Positions 46,554 through 58,645 of a stretch of DNA of 64,000 nt are shown here, one piece after another (the first letter of the stretch is position 1; every line of letters starts with the position of its first letter). Location of the stretch: the NCBI GenBank assembly GCA_018700525.1, contig JABITN010000127.1:1-64000 (forward strand). The letters run 5' to 3'. The translations under genes were made by a program, and so were the position numbers. The notes below the pieces were generated by a model. The model was not told the DNA's origin. It saw only the letters and a list, made by a program, of their open reading frames with translations, and made no database searches. This DNA comes from Opitutales bacterium. GTDB lineage: Bacteria; Verrucomicrobiota; Verrucomicrobiia; Opitutales; Opitutaceae.

Positions 46554-47840
46554 TTAGACGAGAATCAAGGCTGGCTTTTCGAGGATGGTTTTCAGTGCCT
46601 GGATGAATTGGGCTCCGACGACTCCATCCACGACTCGGTGATCGCAGCTGAGGCCTACTCTCATTATCTGGCCGATCGCTATTTCACCGTTGGCGTCTAC
46701 GACCGGGCGAGCAATGGTTGCTCCAACGGATAGAATACCCGCGTTTGGCGTATTGATGATTCCGTAGAATCCTGATACTCCGAACATTCCGAGATTGGTA
46801 ACGGTGAAGGTGCTACCCGACATCTCGTTGGGCGTGAGCTTCTTGGAGCGCGATTTGCCGATGAGTTGTTTGGCTTCTAAGGCAATGGCTTTGAGTCCCT
46901 TGGCGTCGGCATCGCGAATTACAGGGGTCAATAGACCGTCGTTTATTGCGACGCCGAAGGACATATTGACGGCGGAGTGCTGACGGATGGTCGTCTGGTT
47001 CCATGAGCGATTCATCTCAGGGACGCGCCTGAGAGCTTCGGCTGAAGCTTTGAGGATGAAATCGTTGACGGAGAATTTTACGCCGCCTTGTTCGGGTGTG
47101 AGCTCGGAGAGTTCGGAGTTGAGCTGTTTTCGCAATTCCAGCAATGCCGCTACGTCGATCTCGGTTTCGAGATAGAAGTGGGGTACTGTCGTTTTACTTT
47201 CGAGCAGACGCTGGGCGATAACCGCTCTCATTTGAGAAACTGGCAGGTCTTGGGCTTCGGCTATTCCGGCCGACGCAATGACGGCAGGAGCTGATGCGGG
47301 CGTTTTTTGGGAAGCTGGTTTAGCTGCTCCAGGGATTGCTCCGAGCACGTCCTTTTTGACGATGCGCCCGTTCGGACCACTGCCGGTTACGGTCGCTAGG
47401 TCGATACCGTTTTGCGTGGCGAGTTTCTTGGCCAGAGGCGAAGCTTTGATGGCTGGCGCGTCGCTTTGCGGCTGGGGTTTGGCCGGAGCTTCGGCGGCTG
47501 ATTCAGCGTCAGCTGTTCCTTTGGGCGTTTCTTCTAGGATTGCTGCCTCCGGTTCCGCTGGAGCAGCAGGTGTCGGTAGGGAACCTACGTCGAAAGTTTC
47601 ACCGGCTTCTCCGACGGCTGCGATAGGCGCTCCGACGGGTACTTGGCCTCCCACAGGTACGATTTGCTTGAGCAATACGCCTTCGTCGAAAACTTCCAAT
47701 TCCATGGTCGCTTTATCTGTTTCGATTTCCGCGATGATGTCTCCAGACTCGATGGAGTCCCCTTCTTTTTTCAGCCAATTAGCGACGGTTCCCACGGTCA
47801 TGGTATCGCTAAGTTTAGGCATGTCGATTGTTGTAGGCAT
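46554..47840 (-). CDS. pdhC: Pyruvate dehydrogenase E2, dihydrolipoamide acetyltransferase
   Basis: Core of the pyruvate dehydrogenase complex, moving acetyl groups from lipoamide to CoA. 428 residues. One lipoyl domain with the modified lysine in ETDKATMELEVFDEG (about residue 43), an Ala/Pro-rich linker, a peripheral-subunit binding domain (ASPLAKKLATQNGIDLATVTG) and the catalytic domain ending SCDHRVVDGVVGAQF, which holds the active-site histidine and aspartate. Third gene of the leftward pdhA-pdhB-pdhC operon. E3 is not in the window. Confidence 0.95.
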   Translation of the reverse strand: MPTTIDMPKLSDTMTVGTVANWLKKEGDSIESGDIIAEIETDKATMELEVFDEGVLLKQIVPVGGQVPVGAPIAAVGEAGETFDVGSLPTPAAPAEPEAAILEETPKGTADAESAAEAPAKPQPQSDAPAIKASPLAKKLATQNGIDLATVTGSGPNGRIVKKDVLGAIPGAAKPASQKTPASAPAVIASAGIAEAQDLPVSQMRAVIAQRLLESKTTVPHFYLETEIDVAALLELRKQLNSELSELTPEQGGVKFSVNDFILKASAEALRRVPEMNRSWNQTTIRQHSAVNMSFGVAINDGLLTPVIRDADAKGLKAIALEAKQLIGKSRSKKLTPNEMSGSTFTVTNLGMFGVSGFYGIINTPNAGILSVGATIARPVVDANGEIAIGQIMRVGLSCDHRVVDGVVGAQFIQALKTILEKPALILV

Positions 47841-47881
47841 ATAAGAAAAGTTTAGGAATTCAGGTTAAAGGGACGCGATGT

Positions 47882-48856
47882 TTAGCAGATTTCGAGAATT
47901 TTTTTGATAACGACGTCTGATTTTGGAAGCTGTATTTTTTCTAACGGTGGGCTGTAGACTGCGGGAGCATCGATTGCCGAAACCCGTTGTACAGGCGCGT
48001 CGAGATAGTCGAATGCTTGGTTCTGGATAAGGTAGGCGATTTGCGCGTCGACGCCGCAGAAAGGTTTGTTCTCTTCGACGAGTACAGCGCGGCTTGTCTT
48101 TTTGACAGAGTCGACGATGGTTTGCTCGTCTAGCGGGCGAATGGAACGGAGATCGACGACTTCGGCGTCGATGCCGTGTTCCGATTTTAGGATTTCAGCG
48201 GCTTCGAGACAGACGAGAACGGAGGGACCATGGGCGATGAGGGAGACATCGGTGCCTTCGCGTTTGACGTCGGCCTTACCCAATGGGATAACGTATTCTT
48301 CCTCTGGCACTTCTCCGACGTTATTATAGAGAATCGTGCTTTCCATGACGTAGACAGGGTCGTTGTCACGGATGGCGGCCTTGAGGAGTCCTTTCGCGTC
48401 GTAGGGAGTTGTTGGGCACACGACCTTAAGGCCTGGCGTATTCGCAATGAAATTTTCAGGCGTGTGGGAGTGGGTCGCTCCGACTCCGGTACCGCCATTG
48501 GCTGGGCCTCGGATGACGATTGGGACGTTGATCTTTCCGCCGGACATGTAGCGTACGCTGGCGGCGTTGTTGATGATCTGGTCCCATGCGACGTAGGCGA
48601 AGCTCCAAAACATGAGCTCCATGACGGGACGTATCCCTAGCATGGATGCTCCGATCCCCATGCCGATAAATCCGGCTTCGCTGATTGGCGCGTCGACGAT
48701 CCGTTTCGGGCCGAACTGGGCTAGTAGACCTTCGGTGACCTTGTAGGCTCCATTGTATTGCGCGACTTCTTCTCCGATGATGACGACGTTCTCGTCTTGC
48801 TCGAGCTCTTCGATCATCGCGTCTTTAAGCGCTTGGCGGTAACTGATTTCAGACAT
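47882..48856 (-). CDS. pdhB: Pyruvate dehydrogenase E1 beta subunit
   Basis: Pairs with PdhA to form the thiamine-diphosphate dependent E1. 324 residues. EELEQDENVVIIGEEVAQYNG contains the thiamine-activating glutamate region, and FIGMGIGASMLGIRPVMELMF and THSHTPENFIANTPGLKVV are typical of the beta chain. The C-terminal transketolase domain includes VDLRSIRPLDEQTIVDSV. 41 bases before pdhC. Confidence 0.96.
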   Translation of the reverse strand: MSEISYRQALKDAMIEELEQDENVVIIGEEVAQYNGAYKVTEGLLAQFGPKRIVDAPISEAGFIGMGIGASMLGIRPVMELMFWSFAYVAWDQIINNAASVRYMSGGKINVPIVIRGPANGGTGVGATHSHTPENFIANTPGLKVVCPTTPYDAKGLLKAAIRDNDPVYVMESTILYNNVGEVPEEEYVIPLGKADVKREGTDVSLIAHGPSVLVCLEAAEILKSEHGIDAEVVDLRSIRPLDEQTIVDSVKKTSRAVLVEENKPFCGVDAQIAYLIQNQAFDYLDAPVQRVSAIDAPAVYSPPLEKIQLPKSDVVIKKILEIC

Positions 48857-48902
48857 TTAAAATTCTTTTGTATGTAAATTGTATTCAAGAGACTTCGACG
48901 AC

Positions 48903-50018
48903 TTAATCGTTGAAGAATATGCGACCTTCCGACAGCTTTTGATCTGGATTGTCTTCTTCCCAATAGACGTCCTTGAGGATGTCGCTTTCAGGGGGAAAGG
49001 GGCTTTCGTCCGCAAATTTAGCGGATTCTTCGGCTTCGGTTTTGGCTGCTTGATCGATCTCTTTTAGACCTTTTTCGGTGAGCAATTCGGCGTCGACCAA
49101 GTAATCGCGATATAGCAATAGAGGGTCGTGGTTCTTTCGGTAGTCGTCGATTTCTTCCTTCGTCCGATACTTCTTGTGGTTGGCGTCCGCGATGGAATGG
49201 CCTTGATAGCGGTAGGTGTGGATCTCCAGAAGCGAAGGTTTGGATTCTTCGCGAGCGAGATCCATGGCGTTTTTAACGCCTTCGCGAACGTCGAAGATGG
49301 ATTCCCCATTGATGTGGCCCCAATTCATCGAATAGCCCTCGGCTCTAGCTGCCAATCCGAGATCGGGATGCATGCTCGAGCGTTCTTGGGATGTCCCCAT
49401 CGAGTACCCGTTGTTTTCGATGATGTAGACGACCGGCAGGTTCCAGAGGGAGGCAATGTTGAGCGATTCGTGGAAGGCGCCTTGATTGATAGCTCCATCA
49501 CCCAGAAAGCAAAGGGCGCAGCCTTTTTTGTTTTGATATTTCAGACCATAGGCAAGCCCGGCTCCGAGAGGGGTCTGTCCGGCTACGATACCGTGTCCGC
49601 CCCAATAATTTTTGCTAGGGTCGAAGTAATGCATCGACCCGCCTTTGCCTTTGGAGCACCCGGTACTTTTTCCGAAAAGTTCGGCCATGCATTCGTTCAT
49701 ACTCATGCCGACGGCTAGCGCGTGCCCGTGGTCGCGGTAGGCCGTAATGACGTGGTCGTTTTCCTCCATCAGGGAAATGCATCCTACGGCGATTGACTCT
49801 TGCCCAATGTAGAGGTGCAAGAAGCCGGCGATCCTACCTTGTTGGTAGGCCCGGAGTGATCGTTCCTCGAAGCGCCGGATGCGTATCATCTCGCTGTAGA
49901 AGTCGATTAGCTCGTCGCTCGACAAGTTGGCGTTCGCCGGAGACTTGGCGTCTTTGGCTAGAATCGCTTTTGCCGGTTTTTGGCGTTTGGTATTTTCGGA
50001 AACGGATGATTTAGTCAC
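48903..50018 (-). CDS. pdhA: Pyruvate dehydrogenase E1 alpha subunit
   Basis: 371 residues from a GTG at 50018. The thiamine-diphosphate motif is LCFLGDGAINQGAFHESLN (GDG...N), preceded by GGHGIVAGQTPLGAGLAYG. The phosphorylation-loop region HTYRYQGHSIADANHKKYR is of the two-subunit E1 type. The first 25 residues are Lys/Ala/Ser rich and poorly conserved, so the start could be later, but no ATG occurs before the conserved SEMIRIRRFEE. First gene of the pdh operon. Confidence 0.95.
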   Translation of the reverse strand: MTKSSVSENTKRQKPAKAILAKDAKSPANANLSSDELIDFYSEMIRIRRFEERSLRAYQQGRIAGFLHLYIGQESIAVGCISLMEENDHVITAYRDHGHALAVGMSMNECMAELFGKSTGCSKGKGGSMHYFDPSKNYWGGHGIVAGQTPLGAGLAYGLKYQNKKGCALCFLGDGAINQGAFHESLNIASLWNLPVVYIIENNGYSMGTSQERSSMHPDLGLAARAEGYSMNWGHINGESIFDVREGVKNAMDLAREESKPSLLEIHTYRYQGHSIADANHKKYRTKEEIDDYRKNHDPLLLYRDYLVDAELLTEKGLKEIDQAAKTEAEESAKFADESPFPPESDILKDVYWEEDNPDQKLSEGRIFFND

Positions 50019-50767: not shown

Positions 50768-51379
50768 ATGACATGGATCTCTCGAATCACGCTAGCGTTG
50801 CTCTCGGCCTTGGTTGTGGACGCATTCGCGGCGCTCGCTTCGGTGTCGGTCCGTGAAGTCGAATTTAATCGAGTAAATGCTCAGACGAGTTCGAGCGATT
50901 GGCTCGAATGTTCTATTGAGGTTGAGGTGCGGCGCGATCCGCAGGACTCGACGCGTAGGCTTCCGGATTACATTGATGATTTGGTAGTGGAGCTCGTGCT
51001 AGGGATAGAATCGAGCATTAGCGGGCAAAGTAGTTTCGAATTTTTCAAGGTGGAGGCTGCGTTGGTGAGTTTGAAGGAAGGAAAGCATTTTGTCCGCTTC
51101 TATCTCCCACCAGAAATCGTTGAGAGAGATCGTATTAGGAATGAGGTGCATTCCTTTTTGATTCGCCTGAAGTGTTCAGGAAAAGTGGTTGAGGAGCAGG
51201 TTTCGAGGCGATTGGAGCGAATTAATGTGCTCGATAGCTTTTTAAAGCGGGTAGATCTGGACTCTCCTCGTAACGATGGTATCCTGCTTCCTCAATTTAA
51301 GACGCCGTTTAGCGTCGCCTATCCTAATGACACGCCGAGTTTTAGGGACTCTGGGGATCTCGTCGGCGAGCAAGGGTAA
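50768..51379 (+). CDS. Exported protein of the pilus operon (Amuc_1102-like position)
   Basis: 203 residues with a signal peptide (ITLALLSALVVDAFAALA). The mature part is beta-rich with charged strands (SSDWLECSIEVEVRRD, HFVRFYLPPEIVERD) and ends in a Pro/Asp-rich tail. I recognise no domain. It is the first gene before PilM-PilN, PilO-like, and secretin genes, the position held by Amuc_1102 in Akkermansia muciniphila, and has a similar size, so a periplasmic pilus-assembly role is inferred from context only. Confidence 0.7.
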   Translation: MTWISRITLALLSALVVDAFAALASVSVREVEFNRVNAQTSSSDWLECSIEVEVRRDPQDSTRRLPDYIDDLVVELVLGIESSISGQSSFEFFKVEAALVSLKEGKHFVRFYLPPEIVERDRIRNEVHSFLIRLKCSGKVVEEQVSRRLERINVLDSFLKRVDLDSPRNDGILLPQFKTPFSVAYPNDTPSFRDSGDLVGEQG

Positions 51380-51493
51380 TTATGATCGCTGCCTCGGGCA
51401 GTGCTTAGATTAGATTTCTTGTAACGGCTTGAATCTCAAGCGTTTTTTCTTGTGCTGGCTAGGCAAATATCAAAAAATGGTAAATTCCTCTGC

Positions 51494-53188
51494 ATGAGAC
51501 CTCCTCATTACCTAGTCATTAGTTGTGGTTCGAGCCACATCGCCGCTGTTCATCTTTCCATGAATACGAGTGGCCGATGTGAGTTGGAGAACTATTGGAT
51601 AAAGGAAGTGGAACTTTCGATAAACGAACCCCTACTTTGGTTAAAGGCGATGTCGCAGTCATTCGAGGAAATTCGTTTGACGTTTAAGGAAGTTTCTCCG
51701 GTAGGCTACGCGCTACCGGGTAATTTGATTCTGACGAAATATCTGAAGATTCCTCAGACTCCGCGTAAGAAGCGCGATAAGATAATTGCTTTTGAGGCGA
51801 AGCAGAACATTCCGTATCCGATAGGTGAAGTCGCCTGGGATGATTGCCTGATAGAGGAAAGCGACCTGGATCTCGAAACGCTTATTGCGGCTTCGAAGAT
51901 TGAATTGGTCGAATCGCTATCGCGGTACGGCAAAGAGGCAAAAATGGATCCGGACATGATCGAGCCGGCGTTCATGGGGTTGATCAATTGTTTTCGCTTT
52001 AACGAGCCTCAGATAGACGGTTGTACGCTTTTGCTTTCGATTGGTGCCAAGTCGACGGATATTATTTTCTTCAACGGCTCTGAATTCTATTCCCGCAACG
52101 TATCGTTTGGCGGTAATACGGTGACGCAGGAAATGCGCAGCGTCTTAAACTTGCCCTTTGAGGATGTGGAGAGAATTAAGCGTTCCGCGATAGCGGGGGA
52201 ACCGATTCCGACTGTCGAGCATGTTGCGTTCGAGGAAGCTCAGGAGGCATTTCTAAAGCGTTTGAATGTCGAAATTTCCCGAACTCAGGCGATTTATAAA
52301 AATCACGGATACAGCGACGAACCGATTCGGTGTCGCTTGTCGGGCGGTGGCTCGTTACTACCGAATATTGGAGCGAGTTTGAAGAATCGCTTGGCTATTC
52401 CTGTCGAGCAATTTGATCCATTCAAGCAAGTGCGGGTAGGGCAGGGTTGCTCGGAGAGGGCGCTTGAGATCGATAAGGCATTCGTGAGCGAGGCGATGGG
52501 AGTGGCTATCGGTCGTTTCCTTCCAGATTCGCCGGAAATAAATCTTTTGCCGCGCAGCATTGTTTGGCAGCGTAGATTTAAGCGTCAGCAACCCTATTAT
52601 TTGGTAGCTGGTTTGGTCGCCTGCGCCGCGGTTGCGTTACCTTTGGTTAATACAAATCTGTCTCTGCAGCGATATAGCGAAGAAATTCAAAATTTGGATA
52701 CTAATACAGCTCCGCTTCGTGCGTTGAATACGAAGATTGTCGACCGGATACGTGAAATTGAGTCGGTAAAGGGAGTGATTGTCGATGCTAACAAAGTGTC
52801 TCTCGCTCGTTCGAATTGGATGCATTTTTTGAACGACATCCAAATGCGACTATACGAAGTAGAGGATGTTTGGTTGGATCGAATCGAAATCGTTCGATTA
52901 GATACACGTGCGGGCAGTACTTCGAATCGTTTTAATTCCGCTCGGAAGAAAGTGGCGAATCCGGTGCCTGAACTCTTGAAGTTGCGTTTGGAAGGTCGGC
53001 TCTTAGATGTTTCGAATCCACTTTCAACGGTGAGCCAAGAATCAAATAAACGAGTGTCGGCTTTGTTGGATAGTTTTGCTGCATCGGAATTTATCTATCG
53101 CCTGGAAGATGAGCGCTTTGACAATAACTTACCGGGCATTCTGAAATTTAATTTCACTCTAGTCGTCGACTCGACTCGACCTCTATAG
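51494..53188 (+). CDS. PilM-PilN fusion, pilus assembly protein (Amuc_1101-like)
   Basis: 564 residues from ATG 51494. Residues 1-340 are PilM, an actin-like ATPase of the type IV pilus inner-membrane platform: LVISCGSSHIAAVHLSM, IAFEAKQNIPYPIGEVAWD, LLLSIGAKSTDIIFF and RLSGGGSLLPNI are its nucleotide-binding segments. At about 348 the chain reads INLLPRSIVWQRRFKRQQ, the N-terminal signature by which PilN normally binds PilM, then one membrane segment (YYLVAGLVACAAVALPLV), a coiled coil and a periplasmic domain. So the two partners are covalently joined. An upstream GTG at 51452 would add 14 residues. Confidence 0.88.
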   Translation: MRPPHYLVISCGSSHIAAVHLSMNTSGRCELENYWIKEVELSINEPLLWLKAMSQSFEEIRLTFKEVSPVGYALPGNLILTKYLKIPQTPRKKRDKIIAFEAKQNIPYPIGEVAWDDCLIEESDLDLETLIAASKIELVESLSRYGKEAKMDPDMIEPAFMGLINCFRFNEPQIDGCTLLLSIGAKSTDIIFFNGSEFYSRNVSFGGNTVTQEMRSVLNLPFEDVERIKRSAIAGEPIPTVEHVAFEEAQEAFLKRLNVEISRTQAIYKNHGYSDEPIRCRLSGGGSLLPNIGASLKNRLAIPVEQFDPFKQVRVGQGCSERALEIDKAFVSEAMGVAIGRFLPDSPEINLLPRSIVWQRRFKRQQPYYLVAGLVACAAVALPLVNTNLSLQRYSEEIQNLDTNTAPLRALNTKIVDRIREIESVKGVIVDANKVSLARSNWMHFLNDIQMRLYEVEDVWLDRIEIVRLDTRAGSTSNRFNSARKKVANPVPELLKLRLEGRLLDVSNPLSTVSQESNKRVSALLDSFAASEFIYRLEDERFDNNLPGILKFNFTLVVDSTRPL

Positions 53189-53199
53189 CGATAAATATA

Positions 53200-54168
53200 A
53201 TGGGCTGGTTTAAGCGAAATCCTTTTTTCTATACGATCCTCTCTCTCCTGCTAGCAACTACGGTGGGAGGCGTGTGGTATGCGTCCGAGGGAAGAGATGA
53301 GTTGGCGATATTGAAAGATCAATATGAGAAGAAACGCCGTCAAATGGAGATGTACATCGCTCGCTCGCCCGCTCCCACGAAGGCTAATATGGAGGCATTG
53401 GATCGCAATTACGCTCGCCTCATCGAGGAATTCGAATCGGTCCAGTCTTCTTTGAATTTGAATACCTATGATCGAGGACTCTTTTTTGGCCAGGTTCCCG
53501 AGTCGCATAACGAAGCGTTCTTTATGATTGCCAAGTATGTTGAAGATGTCCGGAGTATGGCGATTGGTAGTGGAGTGAAATTTCCTGAAGAATGTCGGTA
53601 TGGTTTTAGTGAATACGAGAACGTTGGTCCTGATTCGGAGATGGTCGAAAGAGTGCATCGTCAGTCCAGAATAATGGAATCCTTGTTGTTGGCTTTGTTT
53701 GACTCGGGAATAAGTGAATTCGTATCCATAAAACGGGAATCCTCGATCGAGGGCAATGCGGTCAATGGAGAAGGCGGAGATTTGTTTAATTTGGAGAATG
53801 ATCGTTCTATTGGCTTGACGGATGCGTTTGAATCCTTGGCGTTTCAATTGGAGTTCAAGGGACAGTCGTTGTCGTTAAGGAATTTTCTGAATAGAGTGAA
53901 TCGTTCTTCGCTTCCGTTTTCGATAAACGAAATTGAAGTGAGGCTCGAAGGCGAGTCAGGTTTGGATGGGAATCGTAGCGCCATTCTGGATAATCCGTTT
54001 GCTCGGCCCAGCGAAACTGAAAGACCGATGTCTGCGGTGCGCGTGCCGATAATCGCTGAGAATGAATCGTTTTTCGTTATCACTTTGGAATTCTGGGATT
54101 TGGTAGGAGGTCCGACTACGGCGGTGGTTGGTAATTCGGGCGAAGGGAGGAGCGGTGTTCAGATTTAG
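53200..54168 (+). CDS. Amuc_1100-like PilO-type periplasmic protein
   Basis: 322 residues: membrane segment (FFYTILSLLLATTVGGVWYA), coiled coil (ELAILKDQYEKKRRQMEMY, ANMEALDRNYARLIEEFESV), then a long periplasmic part with LAFQLEFKGQSLSLRNFLNR, a PilO-like ferredoxin-fold pattern. Length (Amuc_1100 is 317 residues), topology, coiled coil and gene order match Amuc_1100 of Akkermansia muciniphila, the surface-associated protein studied for host effects. Detailed sequence identity looks low, so homology is inferred from architecture and context. Eleven bases after pilM-pilN. Confidence 0.75.
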   Translation: MGWFKRNPFFYTILSLLLATTVGGVWYASEGRDELAILKDQYEKKRRQMEMYIARSPAPTKANMEALDRNYARLIEEFESVQSSLNLNTYDRGLFFGQVPESHNEAFFMIAKYVEDVRSMAIGSGVKFPEECRYGFSEYENVGPDSEMVERVHRQSRIMESLLLALFDSGISEFVSIKRESSIEGNAVNGEGGDLFNLENDRSIGLTDAFESLAFQLEFKGQSLSLRNFLNRVNRSSLPFSINEIEVRLEGESGLDGNRSAILDNPFARPSETERPMSAVRVPIIAENESFFVITLEFWDLVGGPTTAVVGNSGEGRSGVQI

Positions 54169-55099
54169 CCTTTCGGAGTTTTTGGATAAGTTTATCCTAT
54201 TGGTTGCAATGGTGGTCTTTCTTATCGTGGGCGTTTCGAGTATAAAGAGTGTCAAGGTTTTGGATACTATATCCCGTCAGGATACTCCGATGTTGTCGGA
54301 GAGCAAAGTAGACGTGGAGATTTATTCGGTAGACATGAACTTGCCGGAGACGCCCTTATGGGATCGCCCCCAAAGCCAATCGCGAGGAGATGATTGGGTG
54401 TTCGATGTGTTTACGCCTCCAGTTTTATATTATAACTCGGCATCGCGTGAGTTTACGGTGACCCCCCCTGAGTTGATATCGGCGAATAAGCGAGATCCGT
54501 GGAAAGCGTTCGAAATAGAGTTGTTGGAGGTTCGCCAGCGTCCTTATCGTTTGCAGCTTGTTGGTTACGCTGGCGATGACGGAGATTATCTGGCTTCGTT
54601 CCAGTATATTCCCACGGGAGAAGTTTTGCTGGCTCGAGCGGGAAAGCTGCTTTCCGAAGCGGGCGTTAAAATCCTCTCATTCGAGGTGAAGCAGATGGAA
54701 GTCGAGCAAGAGGGCAGTATGCCTGTCTTCGAAAATGTTGGATTGGCTCGTTTGCTTGACTACGAAAGCGGACAAGAAATTTTCCTAACCAATCTCGAGA
54801 CGAAGATATTTTCTGATCTAGAAGCGAAAGTGCGCTCGATTGACAATGGGGATGTGTTTGTCGTGCGAGAAGGAATCCAGGTTGAACTGGACAGCGGATT
54901 TTACATAATCGGCGACCTTTCGGATGATCCGCCGGAAGCTATGGTGACGAAAGTTTCGACGGACGGAGGGAAACGGCTATCTAAGTTGTTGAAACCGTTG
55001 ATAGGAGAAGATTTTCCTAATAAAGGAACACAAAACGCCAACCCTAATAGTCCTTTTGCAATCAGACCTCGTGAGGTCCTACCCAAGCCCAATAGCTAA
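54155..55099 (+). CDS. Amuc_1099-like membrane-anchored periplasmic protein
   Basis: 314 residues from GTG 54155, chosen because AGGGAGG lies just upstream. A TTG at 54128 is also in frame. It overlaps the end of the preceding gene by 14 bases, indicating coupling. One membrane segment (FILLVAMVVFLIVGVSSI) is followed by a periplasmic region with PPELISANKRDPWKAFEIEL and beta-rich QLVGYAGDDGDYLASFQYI, and GIQVELDSGFYIIGDLSDD near the end. The position before the secretin is that of a PilP/GspC-like linker between inner-membrane platform and secretin, but I see no firm motif. Confidence 0.72.
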   Translation: MFRFSLSEFLDKFILLVAMVVFLIVGVSSIKSVKVLDTISRQDTPMLSESKVDVEIYSVDMNLPETPLWDRPQSQSRGDDWVFDVFTPPVLYYNSASREFTVTPPELISANKRDPWKAFEIELLEVRQRPYRLQLVGYAGDDGDYLASFQYIPTGEVLLARAGKLLSEAGVKILSFEVKQMEVEQEGSMPVFENVGLARLLDYESGQEIFLTNLETKIFSDLEAKVRSIDNGDVFVVREGIQVELDSGFYIIGDLSDDPPEAMVTKVSTDGGKRLSKLLKPLIGEDFPNKGTQNANPNSPFAIRPREVLPKPNS

Positions 55100-55120
55100 G
55101 TACCTCTAATTTCAGCTGCG

Positions 55121-57670
55121 ATGCTTATGAATAAATCAAAATATTTTCTGTCGAATTTGACGCTATGCGTTCTCGTCTCGATATTAACCTTCCTCTCGCC
55201 GCAAATTGCGGAAGGGCAAACGGAGATTGATTTGAAGATCCGCTTGATGTCCGAAGCCTTGCAAGCGCGCGATTCTGGTGATCTGACGACTGCTCGTGAT
55301 CGTTTGCAACAATTGTTGGAGATCGCTCCAGCGGACCGTTCGGTTCAAAGTATTTTAGACAGCGTGGATAGTATGATCGATAATAAGACCCGATCAGGCG
55401 TCGCTGGAAACGGGGCGGCTCGGCGTTCGGCTTTGCAGAGCGAAGCGGAGTATTTGGCTCGTTTGGAGGCGGAGCGTATCGAGAAGTCGATGGTGAGCTC
55501 ACGTGAAATTCGGGAGATTGCATTGAGACAGGCAAAACGAGGCGATTTTCCTCTGGCGTTGAGAACGATTCGAAAAGCGGCCGAAATGCTCGAGCCGAAT
55601 CCTCTGACTCAGACTTTGATAGACGAGCTCAAACGCGATGAACGCGATATCCTCAGACAGCAATCTTCTTACGACGCGAAGCGTGTGGCCGCTTCCGAAT
55701 CAGGAAAAGCGAGATTGTCGATAGAGCAAATAAGTCCGGATTTCGTTAATCTTCAGGAAGAGGTCGAGGCTTTGAGCCTTAGAGGACGGAGCCAATTTGT
55801 TGCGGGTGACATCGATGGAGCGGAAGCGACTTTCAAGCGTATCGAAGCCTTGGATCCGAATAACGCGATGGCCAAGAGCTTTCAGGTACGCATTTCGCAG
55901 GAACGTCAATCGATGGCGTATTTGAATAAATTGAAGTCGCGCGAGCAATTGCTCGAAGAAGTTTCGAGCGCTTGGCAGCGTCCTGGGATTTATGAAGAGC
56001 GTCCTGATATCGATCCTACGATATTGGGACCGGCTCCAATGCTCCAGAAACTTAATCAAATTGTAATTTCAAATGTAAATTTCACCGAGCAGCCGCTTAA
56101 CCGGGTAGTGAATACATTGAGCGCCATTTCAGAAGAGTTCGACAATACGGATACAGGGGCTCGTGGGGTGAATCTCGTTTTGCTCGACCCGAATAGAACG
56201 AACCCGATGGTGAACATCACTTTGCGCAATCTATCTCTGAAACGAATTTTAGATTTTATCGTAGATTCGGTTGGTTTTCAGTATGAGATTCAAGATGACG
56301 CAGTTGTTTTACGGCCCGGTGGCGAACGAAGAAATTTGAATACGGAAGTATTTCCGGTGTCGCGTTCAACGGTAATTCGTATGACCGGGATTTCAGGAAG
56401 CACTTCTGAGAGTTCGTTCAATGGGGATCCATTTGCCTCTTCACAAGGAACTTCCTCGCCGGCCAGAGGTATGGCCGGCGATGCGGTCACAATTCGTAAT
56501 TTCTTGCAGCAAGCAGGGGTGGATTTTACTGGATCGGAAGGCAGCACGCTCGCATATGATGGATCGGCTATGATCGTGACGCAGACGACACGCAATCTGG
56601 AGCGTATCAGAAATATACTGAACCGCTACAATGACGTGAAGCAGGTCGAGATCGAAGCGAAGTTCTTAGAAGTTCAGGAAGGGACGCTTGAAGAACTCGG
56701 GTTCGATTGGATCGCAACGGATAGCAATTACAATACGGGAAATGGTCGGGGTGAACAGTATCGAAGCTCGATTCGCAGTCTTTCGGATACCAGTTCTCCA
56801 TCGAATGTCGCCAGTGCGATTTTAATCGATGGCGTTGAAGTCGAGCGTATCTCTCCGCCGGATATTCCTGGTGGAGTGCCTCTGGGATTGGGTAGCGTCC
56901 CTTTCACAAATGTACTCGGTTCTGTGGGATCAATGGATATGGACGTCAGGATTCGGGCTTTGTCTCAGAGCTCCGGTTCGGATTTGTTGAGCGCTCCGAA
57001 AGTGACTGTGCTTTCGGGTAATCAGGCTGAAATCAATGTCAGCCAAGAATTCCGCTACCCGACCCGTTATACCGATGCGGAAAGCAATGTCGGCAATACG
57101 AGCGGCGGTACTTTAGGAGGTGGAGCGGCTGGGGTTACAATCACGCCAGGTACGCCAGAGGATTTCGAGATGCGCAATATCGGCGTCGAGCTGTCGGTTA
57201 CGCCAATTGTGGAAGAAGATGACTACAGTATTACTTTGGAGCTGAATCCGAAAGTGACGGAGTTCGAGGGATTCGTCGAATATGGCGGTCCGAGTGTCGC
57301 ATTGACTTCTGATCGCACCGTAAAGGTCCCATCAGGGTTCTATCAGCCGATTTTCGCTGTGCGCGAGGTCTCTACGAAAGTGACTATATGGGACGGTGCT
57401 ACCGTTGTCATGGGTGGACTCACTCGCGAAGATGTGGTTACCGTCAATGATAAGGTTCCGTTCTTAGGAGATATTCCATTCTTGGGACGGTTTTTCCGCT
57501 CGGAAGGGGAATCTTCATCTAAGCGTAATTTGCTGATTTTCGTGACTGCTAATTTAGTTAGCCCAGGTGGTTCCTTGAAGCGTCAAACGTTACGTGGCGT
57601 ACAGCCCGGAGCGTTGTTCCAAAATCCAACTATCGTGACACCTGGCGGCAGTGAGTCTCGTAGTCAGTAG
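55121..57670 (+). CDS. Secretin of the pilus operon (PilQ/GspD family, Amuc_1098-like)
   Basis: Outer-membrane gate, 849 residues. Signal peptide (LTLCVLVSILTFLSPQIAEG), then tetratricopeptide-like repeats (ALQARDSGDLTTARDRLQQL, RSQFVAGDIDGAEATFKRI) unusual for a secretin, an STN-like N-domain (LSLKRILDFIVDSVGFQYEI), a secretin N repeat (VEIEAKFLEVQEGTLEELGF) and the pore-forming C-domain ending VPFLGDIPFLGRFFRSEG and KRNLLIFVTANLV. The low-complexity GNTSGGTLGGGAAGV lies in the gate region. No AMIN domain is evident. It ends the operon. Pilins and motor ATPases must be encoded elsewhere. Confidence 0.92.
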   Translation: MLMNKSKYFLSNLTLCVLVSILTFLSPQIAEGQTEIDLKIRLMSEALQARDSGDLTTARDRLQQLLEIAPADRSVQSILDSVDSMIDNKTRSGVAGNGAARRSALQSEAEYLARLEAERIEKSMVSSREIREIALRQAKRGDFPLALRTIRKAAEMLEPNPLTQTLIDELKRDERDILRQQSSYDAKRVAASESGKARLSIEQISPDFVNLQEEVEALSLRGRSQFVAGDIDGAEATFKRIEALDPNNAMAKSFQVRISQERQSMAYLNKLKSREQLLEEVSSAWQRPGIYEERPDIDPTILGPAPMLQKLNQIVISNVNFTEQPLNRVVNTLSAISEEFDNTDTGARGVNLVLLDPNRTNPMVNITLRNLSLKRILDFIVDSVGFQYEIQDDAVVLRPGGERRNLNTEVFPVSRSTVIRMTGISGSTSESSFNGDPFASSQGTSSPARGMAGDAVTIRNFLQQAGVDFTGSEGSTLAYDGSAMIVTQTTRNLERIRNILNRYNDVKQVEIEAKFLEVQEGTLEELGFDWIATDSNYNTGNGRGEQYRSSIRSLSDTSSPSNVASAILIDGVEVERISPPDIPGGVPLGLGSVPFTNVLGSVGSMDMDVRIRALSQSSGSDLLSAPKVTVLSGNQAEINVSQEFRYPTRYTDAESNVGNTSGGTLGGGAAGVTITPGTPEDFEMRNIGVELSVTPIVEEDDYSITLELNPKVTEFEGFVEYGGPSVALTSDRTVKVPSGFYQPIFAVREVSTKVTIWDGATVVMGGLTREDVVTVNDKVPFLGDIPFLGRFFRSEGESSSKRNLLIFVTANLVSPGGSLKRQTLRGVQPGALFQNPTIVTPGGSESRSQ

Positions 57671-57754: not shown

Positions 57755-58645
57755 ATGCCTAAATACATGCTAGTCGACGGTTTCAACATGGCCTTTCGCG
57801 CTTATTACGCGGTTCGCGAATTAACGCGTATGGATGGCTTCCCGACGAATGCGTTGTACGGTTGGGTGCGGTCGATGTGGAAGCTCGTGGACGACCAGAA
57901 GCCGAACGAGACGATTGTTTTTTTCGATCTGGGCGGAGCGCAGGCGAAATTGGCTTTACTCCCTGAATACAAGGCGAACCGAGGCGAAACACCGGAAGAG
58001 TTCGAGAAACAAGTGCCTATTATCAAAGACCTGACGCGGGCGATGGGTTATGGGATCTACGAAAAACATGGAGTTGAGTCGGACGATCTTTTGGCTGCGT
58101 ATGCCAACAAGCTTTGCGGTGATGACCCAGATGCGACGGTGCTAATCGTCAGTGCGGATAAGGACTTTGCTCAGTCGGTGAATGAACGTATTCACATGCT
58201 CTTGCCGCCGCCGACTGCGAATCCCCGTTTGGGGTGGCGTTTGATGGATCCGTCGGGCGTCGAGGAAAAGTTCGGAGTGAAGGCCTCGCAGATTTCAGAT
58301 TATTTATCATTGATTGGCGACTCGTCGGATAATATCCTAGGGATTCCTGGAGTTGGTCCGAAGACGGCTGTGAAGTGGCTGAATGAATACGGAGATATCG
58401 ATAGCATCTTTGAGAATGCCGATAAGTTGAAGCCGGTTCGTTTTCAGGAATTAGTGACCACTATGGTCGATCGCATGGCGATTAATCGAAAGATCATTAC
58501 GTTCGATCCCGATTGCGGTCCTGAATCGATCTCGTTGGGCTCGGTCGATCCTGGGGCTCTGTTTGAAATCCTTGAAGAAATGGAAATGAATACGCATCTT
58601 AAGGAAGCGAAGAAGCGTTATTCCCAAGGAGAGTTGGCTTTTTAA
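57755..58645 (+). CDS. 5'-3' exonuclease (FEN family, stand-alone)
   Basis: 296 residues, equivalent to the N-terminal 5' nuclease of DNA polymerase I without the polymerase. MLVDGFNMAFRAYYA and HGVESDDLLAAYA, VLIVSADKDFAQ supply metal-binding aspartates. The helix-hairpin-helix region is LIGDSSDNILGIPGVGPKTA. Likely acts on flaps and RNA primers. A start at 57713 would add 14 residues through the hairpin sequence, so ATG 57755 with its GAGGA is preferred. It follows the secretin after 84 bases. Confidence 0.94.
   Translation: MPKYMLVDGFNMAFRAYYAVRELTRMDGFPTNALYGWVRSMWKLVDDQKPNETIVFFDLGGAQAKLALLPEYKANRGETPEEFEKQVPIIKDLTRAMGYGIYEKHGVESDDLLAAYANKLCGDDPDATVLIVSADKDFAQSVNERIHMLLPPPTANPRLGWRLMDPSGVEEKFGVKASQISDYLSLIGDSSDNILGIPGVGPKTAVKWLNEYGDIDSIFENADKLKPVRFQELVTTMVDRMAINRKIITFDPDCGPESISLGSVDPGALFEILEEMEMNTHLKEAKKRYSQGELAF

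Follow-up and report, generated by a model that had tools for sequence, protein, structure and literature searches.

The protein Amuc_1100 of Akkermansia muciniphila has been studied as an outer-membrane protein acting on the gut, and the phylum that holds its locus, the Verrucomicrobiota, has many environmental members. What does such a locus do across this phylum? We addressed this question with five genes at positions 50768-57670 of a 64,000-nucleotide stretch of DNA (the window) from an Opitutales bacterium (assembly GCA_018700525.1, contig JABITN010000127.1, positions 1 to 64,000), which resemble the Akkermansia genes Amuc_1102 to Amuc_1098. The locus very probably encodes the alignment complex and the outer-membrane secretin of a type IV pilus, together with a small secreted protein encoded ahead of them.

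The five open reading frames (ORFs) lie head to tail on the + strand, and all are open and intact. The first (50768-51379) encodes an Amuc_1102-like, putatively secreted protein of 203 residues, with an N-terminus that looked hydrophobic by eye, and matched the NCBIfam Amuc_1102 model with an E value of 3.8e-4 (20.1 bits, cut-off 55). A gap of 72 bases separates it from GTG 51452, from which the second ORF is open; the sequence indicated that gene 2 probably starts at ATG 51494 instead, giving an Amuc_1101-like gene at 51494-53188 (NCBIfam Amuc_1101, 3.3e-77, 261 bits, cut-off 650). Eleven bases further on, gene 3 (53200-54168) encodes the Amuc_1100-like protein of 322 residues (NCBIfam Amuc_1100, 4.7e-19, 69 bits, cut-off 180). 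The start of gene 4 was likewise corrected, probably to GTG 54155 rather than TTG 54128, so that the gene (54155-55099, 314 residues) overlaps the end of the Amuc_1100-like gene by 14 bases. It had no NCBIfam or Pfam match and was assigned as Amuc_1099-like by position only at this step. After another 21 bases follows gene 5 (55121-57670), encoding a secretin of 849 residues (NCBIfam Amuc_1098, 2.1e-120, 403 bits, cut-off 750). Since all four NCBIfam scores were below the cut-offs, we regard the products of genes 1, 2, 3 and 5 as distant orthologues and not as strict members of these families. The earlier note on this DNA had recognized the order and size pattern of Amuc_1102 to Amuc_1098, and the four matches, in the right order, bear this out.

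Gene 2 is, as judged from its family profile, a PilM-PilN fusion. Counted from GTG 51452, an actin-like PilM domain spans residues 25-356 and is followed by an INLLP motif at 363-367, placed just before a hydrophobic membrane segment, and then by a PilN-like part. The INLLP-type motif would mark the PilN peptide that binds PilM. Its strict form was found in 52 of 117 PilM-family proteins, one of which (L076) was too short to show it, and looser forms were seen by eye at the same alignment columns. The window protein matched Pfam PilM_2 with an E value of 1e-25, and PF11104 was present in all 40 members of the gene 2 family. When a profile of these 40 relatives was searched against PDB, positions 2-349 matched PilM of 3jc8, a type IVa pilus machine model (1.3e-70), PilM 2ych was also matched (7.3e-55), and positions 355-564 matched PilN of 3jc8 (3.5e-12). 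A profile of the C-terminal part placed PilN at the top with 5.5e-11; the next, unrelated match was at 0.0082 and a second PilN (4bhq) at 0.085. Pfam PilN was matched at E<=0.1 by 10 of 49 C-terminal parts, the best at 6.4e-6.

The product of gene 3 has a short basic N-terminus, a long helix at 8-54 that includes a hydrophobic segment, and then an alpha/beta part; by analogy it would be located in the inner membrane. Its AlphaFold2 model, made with 53 aligned sequences, had a mean predicted local distance difference test (pLDDT) of 84.7 and a predicted TM-score (pTM) of 0.69. In a Foldseek search of PDB with this model, ranks 1-10 were all Amuc_1100 chains (best E 3.9e-11), followed by chain Oa of 3jc8 (5.5e-4) and Pseudomonas PilO (4.7e-3). 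VIA-align gave Z scores of 17.9-18.5 for Amuc_1100 (6laf_A, Z 18.4, root-mean-square deviation (rmsd) 3.2 over 167), 9.7 for PilO 2rjz_B (rmsd 2.1 over 92 residues) and 7.7 for PilO 5uvr, with the unrelated DesK (6.4) and the GspL protein XcpY (6.2) lower down. The structure prediction proposed earlier for this product thus placed Amuc_1100 chains best in PDB, with PilO second. At the sequence level, a profile of the 1100 family matched Amuc_1100 in PDB at 2.8e-18. Used singly as a PDB sequence query, the 1100-like protein gave no match; matches came only with the family profile and the fold search. Pfam scans of the family were uninformative apart from weak T2SSM_b matches (4 of 35 members, best 0.04). 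An hhalign comparison of the PilN part with the 1100 family (82 %, 58 columns) was not used, because only the membrane helix and the start of the coiled coil were aligned.

The gene 4 product is likely PilP-like, as judged from its predicted structure. The AlphaFold2 model (35 sequences, pLDDT 82.0, pTM 0.56) consists of an N-terminal helix at 6-41 and then an all-beta part, and its best VIA match was chain Pa of 3jc8 (Z 7.9, rmsd 3.1 over 71), with the next entry at 4.7. Two mutually exclusive variants were seen in the 1099 family: a calcium-loop-like DxDxDG in 30 of 84 rows and FTPP in 49 of 84, never both. Without duplicates, the counts for these rows (L040-L166 and the window) were 29 and 45 of 79. 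Pfam TSP3_bac matched 11 of 35 family members.

Gene 5, in the PilQ position, combines a weak TPR-like part, a weak STN domain (18.6 bits, cut-off 28.4) and a secretin domain at 613-813 (Pfam Secretin PF00263, 3.3e-37). The secretin with TPR-like repeats that the earlier note had described therefore stands as a secretin, and the repeats are weak (best TPR_2 25.3 bits, cut-off 27). Since gene 2 matched PilM and PilN, gene 3 has the predicted fold of PilO and gene 4 is likely PilP-like, the locus reads as PilM.N-PilO-PilP-PilQ.

Candidates for other pilus parts were found elsewhere in the genome. Contig C154 carries a PilT (453 bits, over the cut-off of 319) beside an ATPase that scored best as PilB (627 bits, cut-off 676). 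Three secretins were found in the genome. On contig C62, the top-scoring models for a secretin and an ATPase were GspD and GspE, each narrowly missing its cut-off, and pilin-like ORFs were seen nearby by eye. On contig C206 (L080, 9351-13611), a secretin follows four small ORFs of 344, 225, 198 and 156 residues, sizes like those of PilM, PilN, PilO and PilP, and lies near an N_methyl protein and pilin-like genes. The four small ORFs had no Pfam match; by position, this cluster could represent a further pilus set. The C206 secretin was strongly matched (E<1e-40) in 12 of 15 same-family genomes searched. Among four sampled genomes of the family without Amuc-type genes, three (G010, G088 and G143) have such a strong match and G080 has only a weak one, and for this reason the C206-type and the Amuc-type sets may replace one another.

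The locus is widespread in the phylum. Among 145 Verrucomicrobiota genomes, the Amuc_1100 family was matched in 106 at E<=0.001 (11 of them over the cut-off), the Amuc_1101 (PilM) family in 124 at E<=1e-20, and PilT in 138 at E<=1e-60. PilM and PilT occurred together in 122 genomes, PilM only in 2, PilT only in 16 and neither in 5 (Fisher p 7e-4, which takes no account of relatedness). To compare gene order, 121 loci were collected: 40 chosen by an Amuc_1100 match, 80 by a PilM match (the best 80 of 587), and the window; four pairs shared sequence, leaving 117 after removal of duplicates. The order PilM, 1100, 1099, secretin on one strand, with the secretin last, was complete in 102 of 121 loci, or 98 of 117 without duplicates. 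By set, it was complete in 36 of the 40 Amuc_1100-chosen loci and 65 of the 80 PilM-chosen ones, in addition to the window; only the 80 are independent of the profiles, because these were trained on the 40. Since the loci were picked for having one of these genes, the survey shows that the order is conserved and not how frequent it is. Record titles among the loci include Opitutae, Kiritimatiellae, Lentisphaerae, Limisphaerales and Spartobacteria. An Amuc_1102 relative directly precedes PilM in 71 of the 102 complete loci, an approximate figure because its model includes three unrelated-looking rows. The 19 loci without the complete order comprise 16 cut by a contig end and three others. In L046 the order is kept, and 1100 and 1099 share one reading frame. 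L047, from genome G116 of the window's family, also joins its 1100-like and 1099-like parts in one frame, but no neighbouring secretin was recognised there, and G116 gave no PilT match at E<=1e-60. In L087, the genes follow the usual order but are broken. The synteny comparison called for in the earlier note thus found the gene order recurring in other Verrucomicrobiota.

L087 (8001-16940; OX638348.1) is the closest relative of the window among the loci listed, with a PilM 69% identical. Its PilM, 1100-like and 1099-like genes and its secretin are all in pieces. The secretin has two gaps with an insert of more than 1 kb each, one of them with an ORF that looked by eye like an IS3-type transposase. 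The pyruvate dehydrogenase (PDH)-like, NUDIX and 1102-like genes of this locus, and the visible part of an exonuclease gene, each align in one piece.

Several observations weigh against reading the locus as a pilus base. No pilin, prepilin peptidase or motor gene is present in the locus, and the candidate motors lie on other contigs; the platform candidate on contig C169 scored best as GspF (354 bits, cut-off 424), with PilC models next, and an ATPase on C169 scored better as GspE than as PilB. The secretin itself scored about alike with GspD, MshL and PilQ models (4e-43, 5e-36 and 9e-36). For gene 2, the C-terminal part of the window's own protein alone had no PilN match, so that PilN is assigned at the family level, and all 49 members of the C-terminal profile had been chosen for the strict INLLP-type motif. 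For gene 3, the family profile found no PilO among PDB sequences. For gene 4, the PilP match is partial, has a Z score below 8 and is to a chain of an architectural model; since Foldseek placed chain Pa only fourth (E 0.072) and the 1099 family profile found no PilP among PDB sequences, the identity with PilP is no more than likely. The PDB matches name chains Ma and Na of 3jc8 as PilM and PilN, while chains Oa and Pa are taken by us to be PilO and PilP from their letters. In the genome searches, PilT was found without this PilM in the 16 genomes counted above, and among 14 control genomes the Amuc_1100 search matched one (Bacillus subtilis) and the PilM search three, all below the cut-offs. 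Because control genomes matched, the genome counts for PilM and Amuc_1100 may include other PilMs or chance matches.

Pilus function and the physical assembly of these proteins are proposed here by analogy with known type IV pili. The actin-like PilM domain would lie in the cytoplasm and meet the motor ATPases PilB and PilT and the platform protein, all encoded elsewhere. The fused PilN part would cross the inner membrane and pair with the Amuc_1100-like PilO, and the Amuc_1099-like PilP would span the periplasm to the secretin. Through the secretin, the pilus would be extended and retracted, with PilB and PilT as its motors. In the gut, signalling to the host by Amuc_1100 may be a later by-effect of such a machine.

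An alternative is that the locus is a second type II secretion system (T2SS) platform, GspL-GspM-GspC-GspD, which secretes proteins rather than building pili. GspL has the same fused PilM/PilN layout, which speaks against the pilus base and for a T2SS. Traces of T2SS families were also seen: Pfam T2SSL in 4 of 40 PilM-family members, the weak T2SSM_b matches of the 1100 family, T2SSM in 3 of 49 gene 2 C-terminal parts (best 0.0032), and XcpY further down among the structural matches to the gene 3 model. The T2SS proteins were, however, no closer than the pilus proteins. PilM and PilN came first in the PDB sequence searches, and the pilus- or T2SS-type matches of the gene 2 profile were PilM and PilN, with no GspL among the matches listed. 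PilO ranked above XcpY, which scored no higher than the unrelated DesK, and the genome has the separate C62 cluster of GspD/GspE type. The secretin scores themselves favour neither system. We consider a second T2SS platform quite improbable. A machine derived from a pilus could also have another main job, such as bulk polymer or DNA uptake, without a lasting pilus. Mucin uptake through pilus-like genes has been proposed, a proposal not found in our literature search. Passages of PMC5332112 report high abundance of the Akkermansia cluster proteins and a tenfold or greater enrichment in one envelope fraction. ComEC was found in 140 of 145 genomes, so widely that its presence does not distinguish DNA uptake from other roles. 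PilT accompanied this PilM in 122 of 124 genomes, as expected for a dynamic pilus. The observations fit uptake with and without a pilus alike, but an uptake machine of this kind appears very improbable.

The locus could, lastly, be a host-interaction locus of gut lineages that was spread by transfer. Recombinant Amuc_1100 induced TLR2 in cell tests, according to passages of PMC5332112. Against such an origin, the locus is phylum-wide, including records titled groundwater, Lake Baikal, pond, palsa and bog, and no locus had another order except those that are cut, broken or without a secretin. We give this explanation next to no probability. The original role of the locus was probably to run pili rather than to signal to a host. 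The earlier note had suggested that an envelope machine not originally devoted to host signalling occurs throughout the phylum, and the distribution of the family, the conserved order and the homology support this suggestion. The novelty of such a machine was overstated, as the Akkermansia cluster is already described in papers as a set of type IV pilus genes.

Passages of Ottman et al. 2017 (PMC5332112) call the Akkermansia cluster pili-like and predict a type II/III secretion protein for Amuc_1098 and FtsA for Amuc_1101. In parts of a 2023 review (PMC10688800), the genes form a type IV pili gene cluster and Amuc_1098 is PilQ, a name also used in a portion of PMC9415379, and an extract of PMC11573778 names Amuc_1100 PilO. 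A 2026 review (PMC13119276), again in part, gives PilQ and describes Amuc_1100 as structurally like type IV pilus and type II secretion proteins. No statement of Amuc_1101 as a PilM-PilN fusion or of Amuc_1099 as PilP-like was found in the extracts of open-licence literature searched, and a search of this literature for Verrucomicrobia with PilM/PilQ or natural transformation returned nothing that looked relevant among the matches listed. If Amuc_1100 is the PilO of a phylum-wide pilus base, it would be expected to be an inner-membrane protein that lies mostly in the periplasm, and how it comes into contact with host receptors, whether by lysis, by vesicles or only through the activity of the isolated protein, could then be asked directly. 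Naming each gene after its pilus counterpart also provides a testable pilus gene set for the Verrucomicrobiota.

Of the genes around the locus, ORFs that looked by eye like PDH E1 and E2 lie upstream on the - strand (46554-50018), in agreement with the PDH genes reported nearby by the earlier note. The next gene downstream (57755-58645, + strand, beyond the five-gene locus) encodes a stand-alone 5'-3' exonuclease of the PolA N-terminal domain type, in an ORF open from TTG 57713. It is the only PF02739 match in the genome, and it matched the N-terminal part of NCBIfam DNA polymerase I models (9.2e-78) and a PRK14976-type 5'-3' exonuclease model (1.3e-51). No DNA_pol_A match was found in the genome (96.5 % completeness). 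The exonuclease was found in 42 of the 121 loci, on the strand of the secretin and within about 200 bases of its end except in L045 (896 bases); it is absent from 37 loci with enough room for it, 25 others offer no room, and in 17 no secretin was recognised. Without duplicates and with the window counted, it is present in 41 loci and absent from 34 that have room. An overlap of 4 bases between its ORF and the end of the secretin ORF was seen in eight loci, whose titles are all Limisphaerales or Verrucomicrobia subdivision 3. Across the 145 genomes, 21 (from 13 families) have it on the PilM strand no more than 8 kb downstream of that gene, and 4 further ones have it 8-16 kb downstream; in 12 of 37 same-contig pairs it is farther away or on the other strand (distances read by eye from whole-genome tables, and for G121 from the Amuc_1100 match). 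None of these 25 genomes is among the 50 with a strong DNA_pol_A match (E<=1e-140), and five (G056, G115, G118, G124 and G139) have a weaker one. The absence of DNA polymerase I is not a new finding, as passages of PMC12926913 describe many Verrucomicrobia without this polymerase and carrying a solo nuclease. For this reason, a housekeeping role of the exonuclease is favoured. It seems unlikely that it belongs to the working set of the machine, where, in bacteria lacking a strong DNA polymerase I match, pilus-driven DNA uptake and nuclease processing would be coupled in an operon for DNA import retained from early in the history of the phylum.

Compared with the Amuc_1098-Amuc_1102 locus of Akkermansia muciniphila, the window locus is alike in gene order, gene sizes, four of the five families and the 1100 fold, whereas its proteins are low in identity and under the NCBIfam cut-offs. 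Where the Akkermansia-type member L057 has a DxDxDG-type loop, the 1099-like protein of the window shows FTPP, by eye. The T2SS proteins GspL-GspM-GspC-GspD share the fused layout of GspL and related folds, with XcpY not above background, but the sequence is nearer to PilM and PilN, and the genome has its own GspD/GspE-type cluster. PilMNOPQ of the type IVa pilus has equivalents of PilM, PilN, PilO and the secretin, and a likely one of PilP, in the same order. In the window, however, PilM and PilN are fused into a single protein, the PilP-like product is longer (314 residues versus a chain of 155), a gene for a secreted protein precedes PilM, and the secretin carries a weak TPR-like part.

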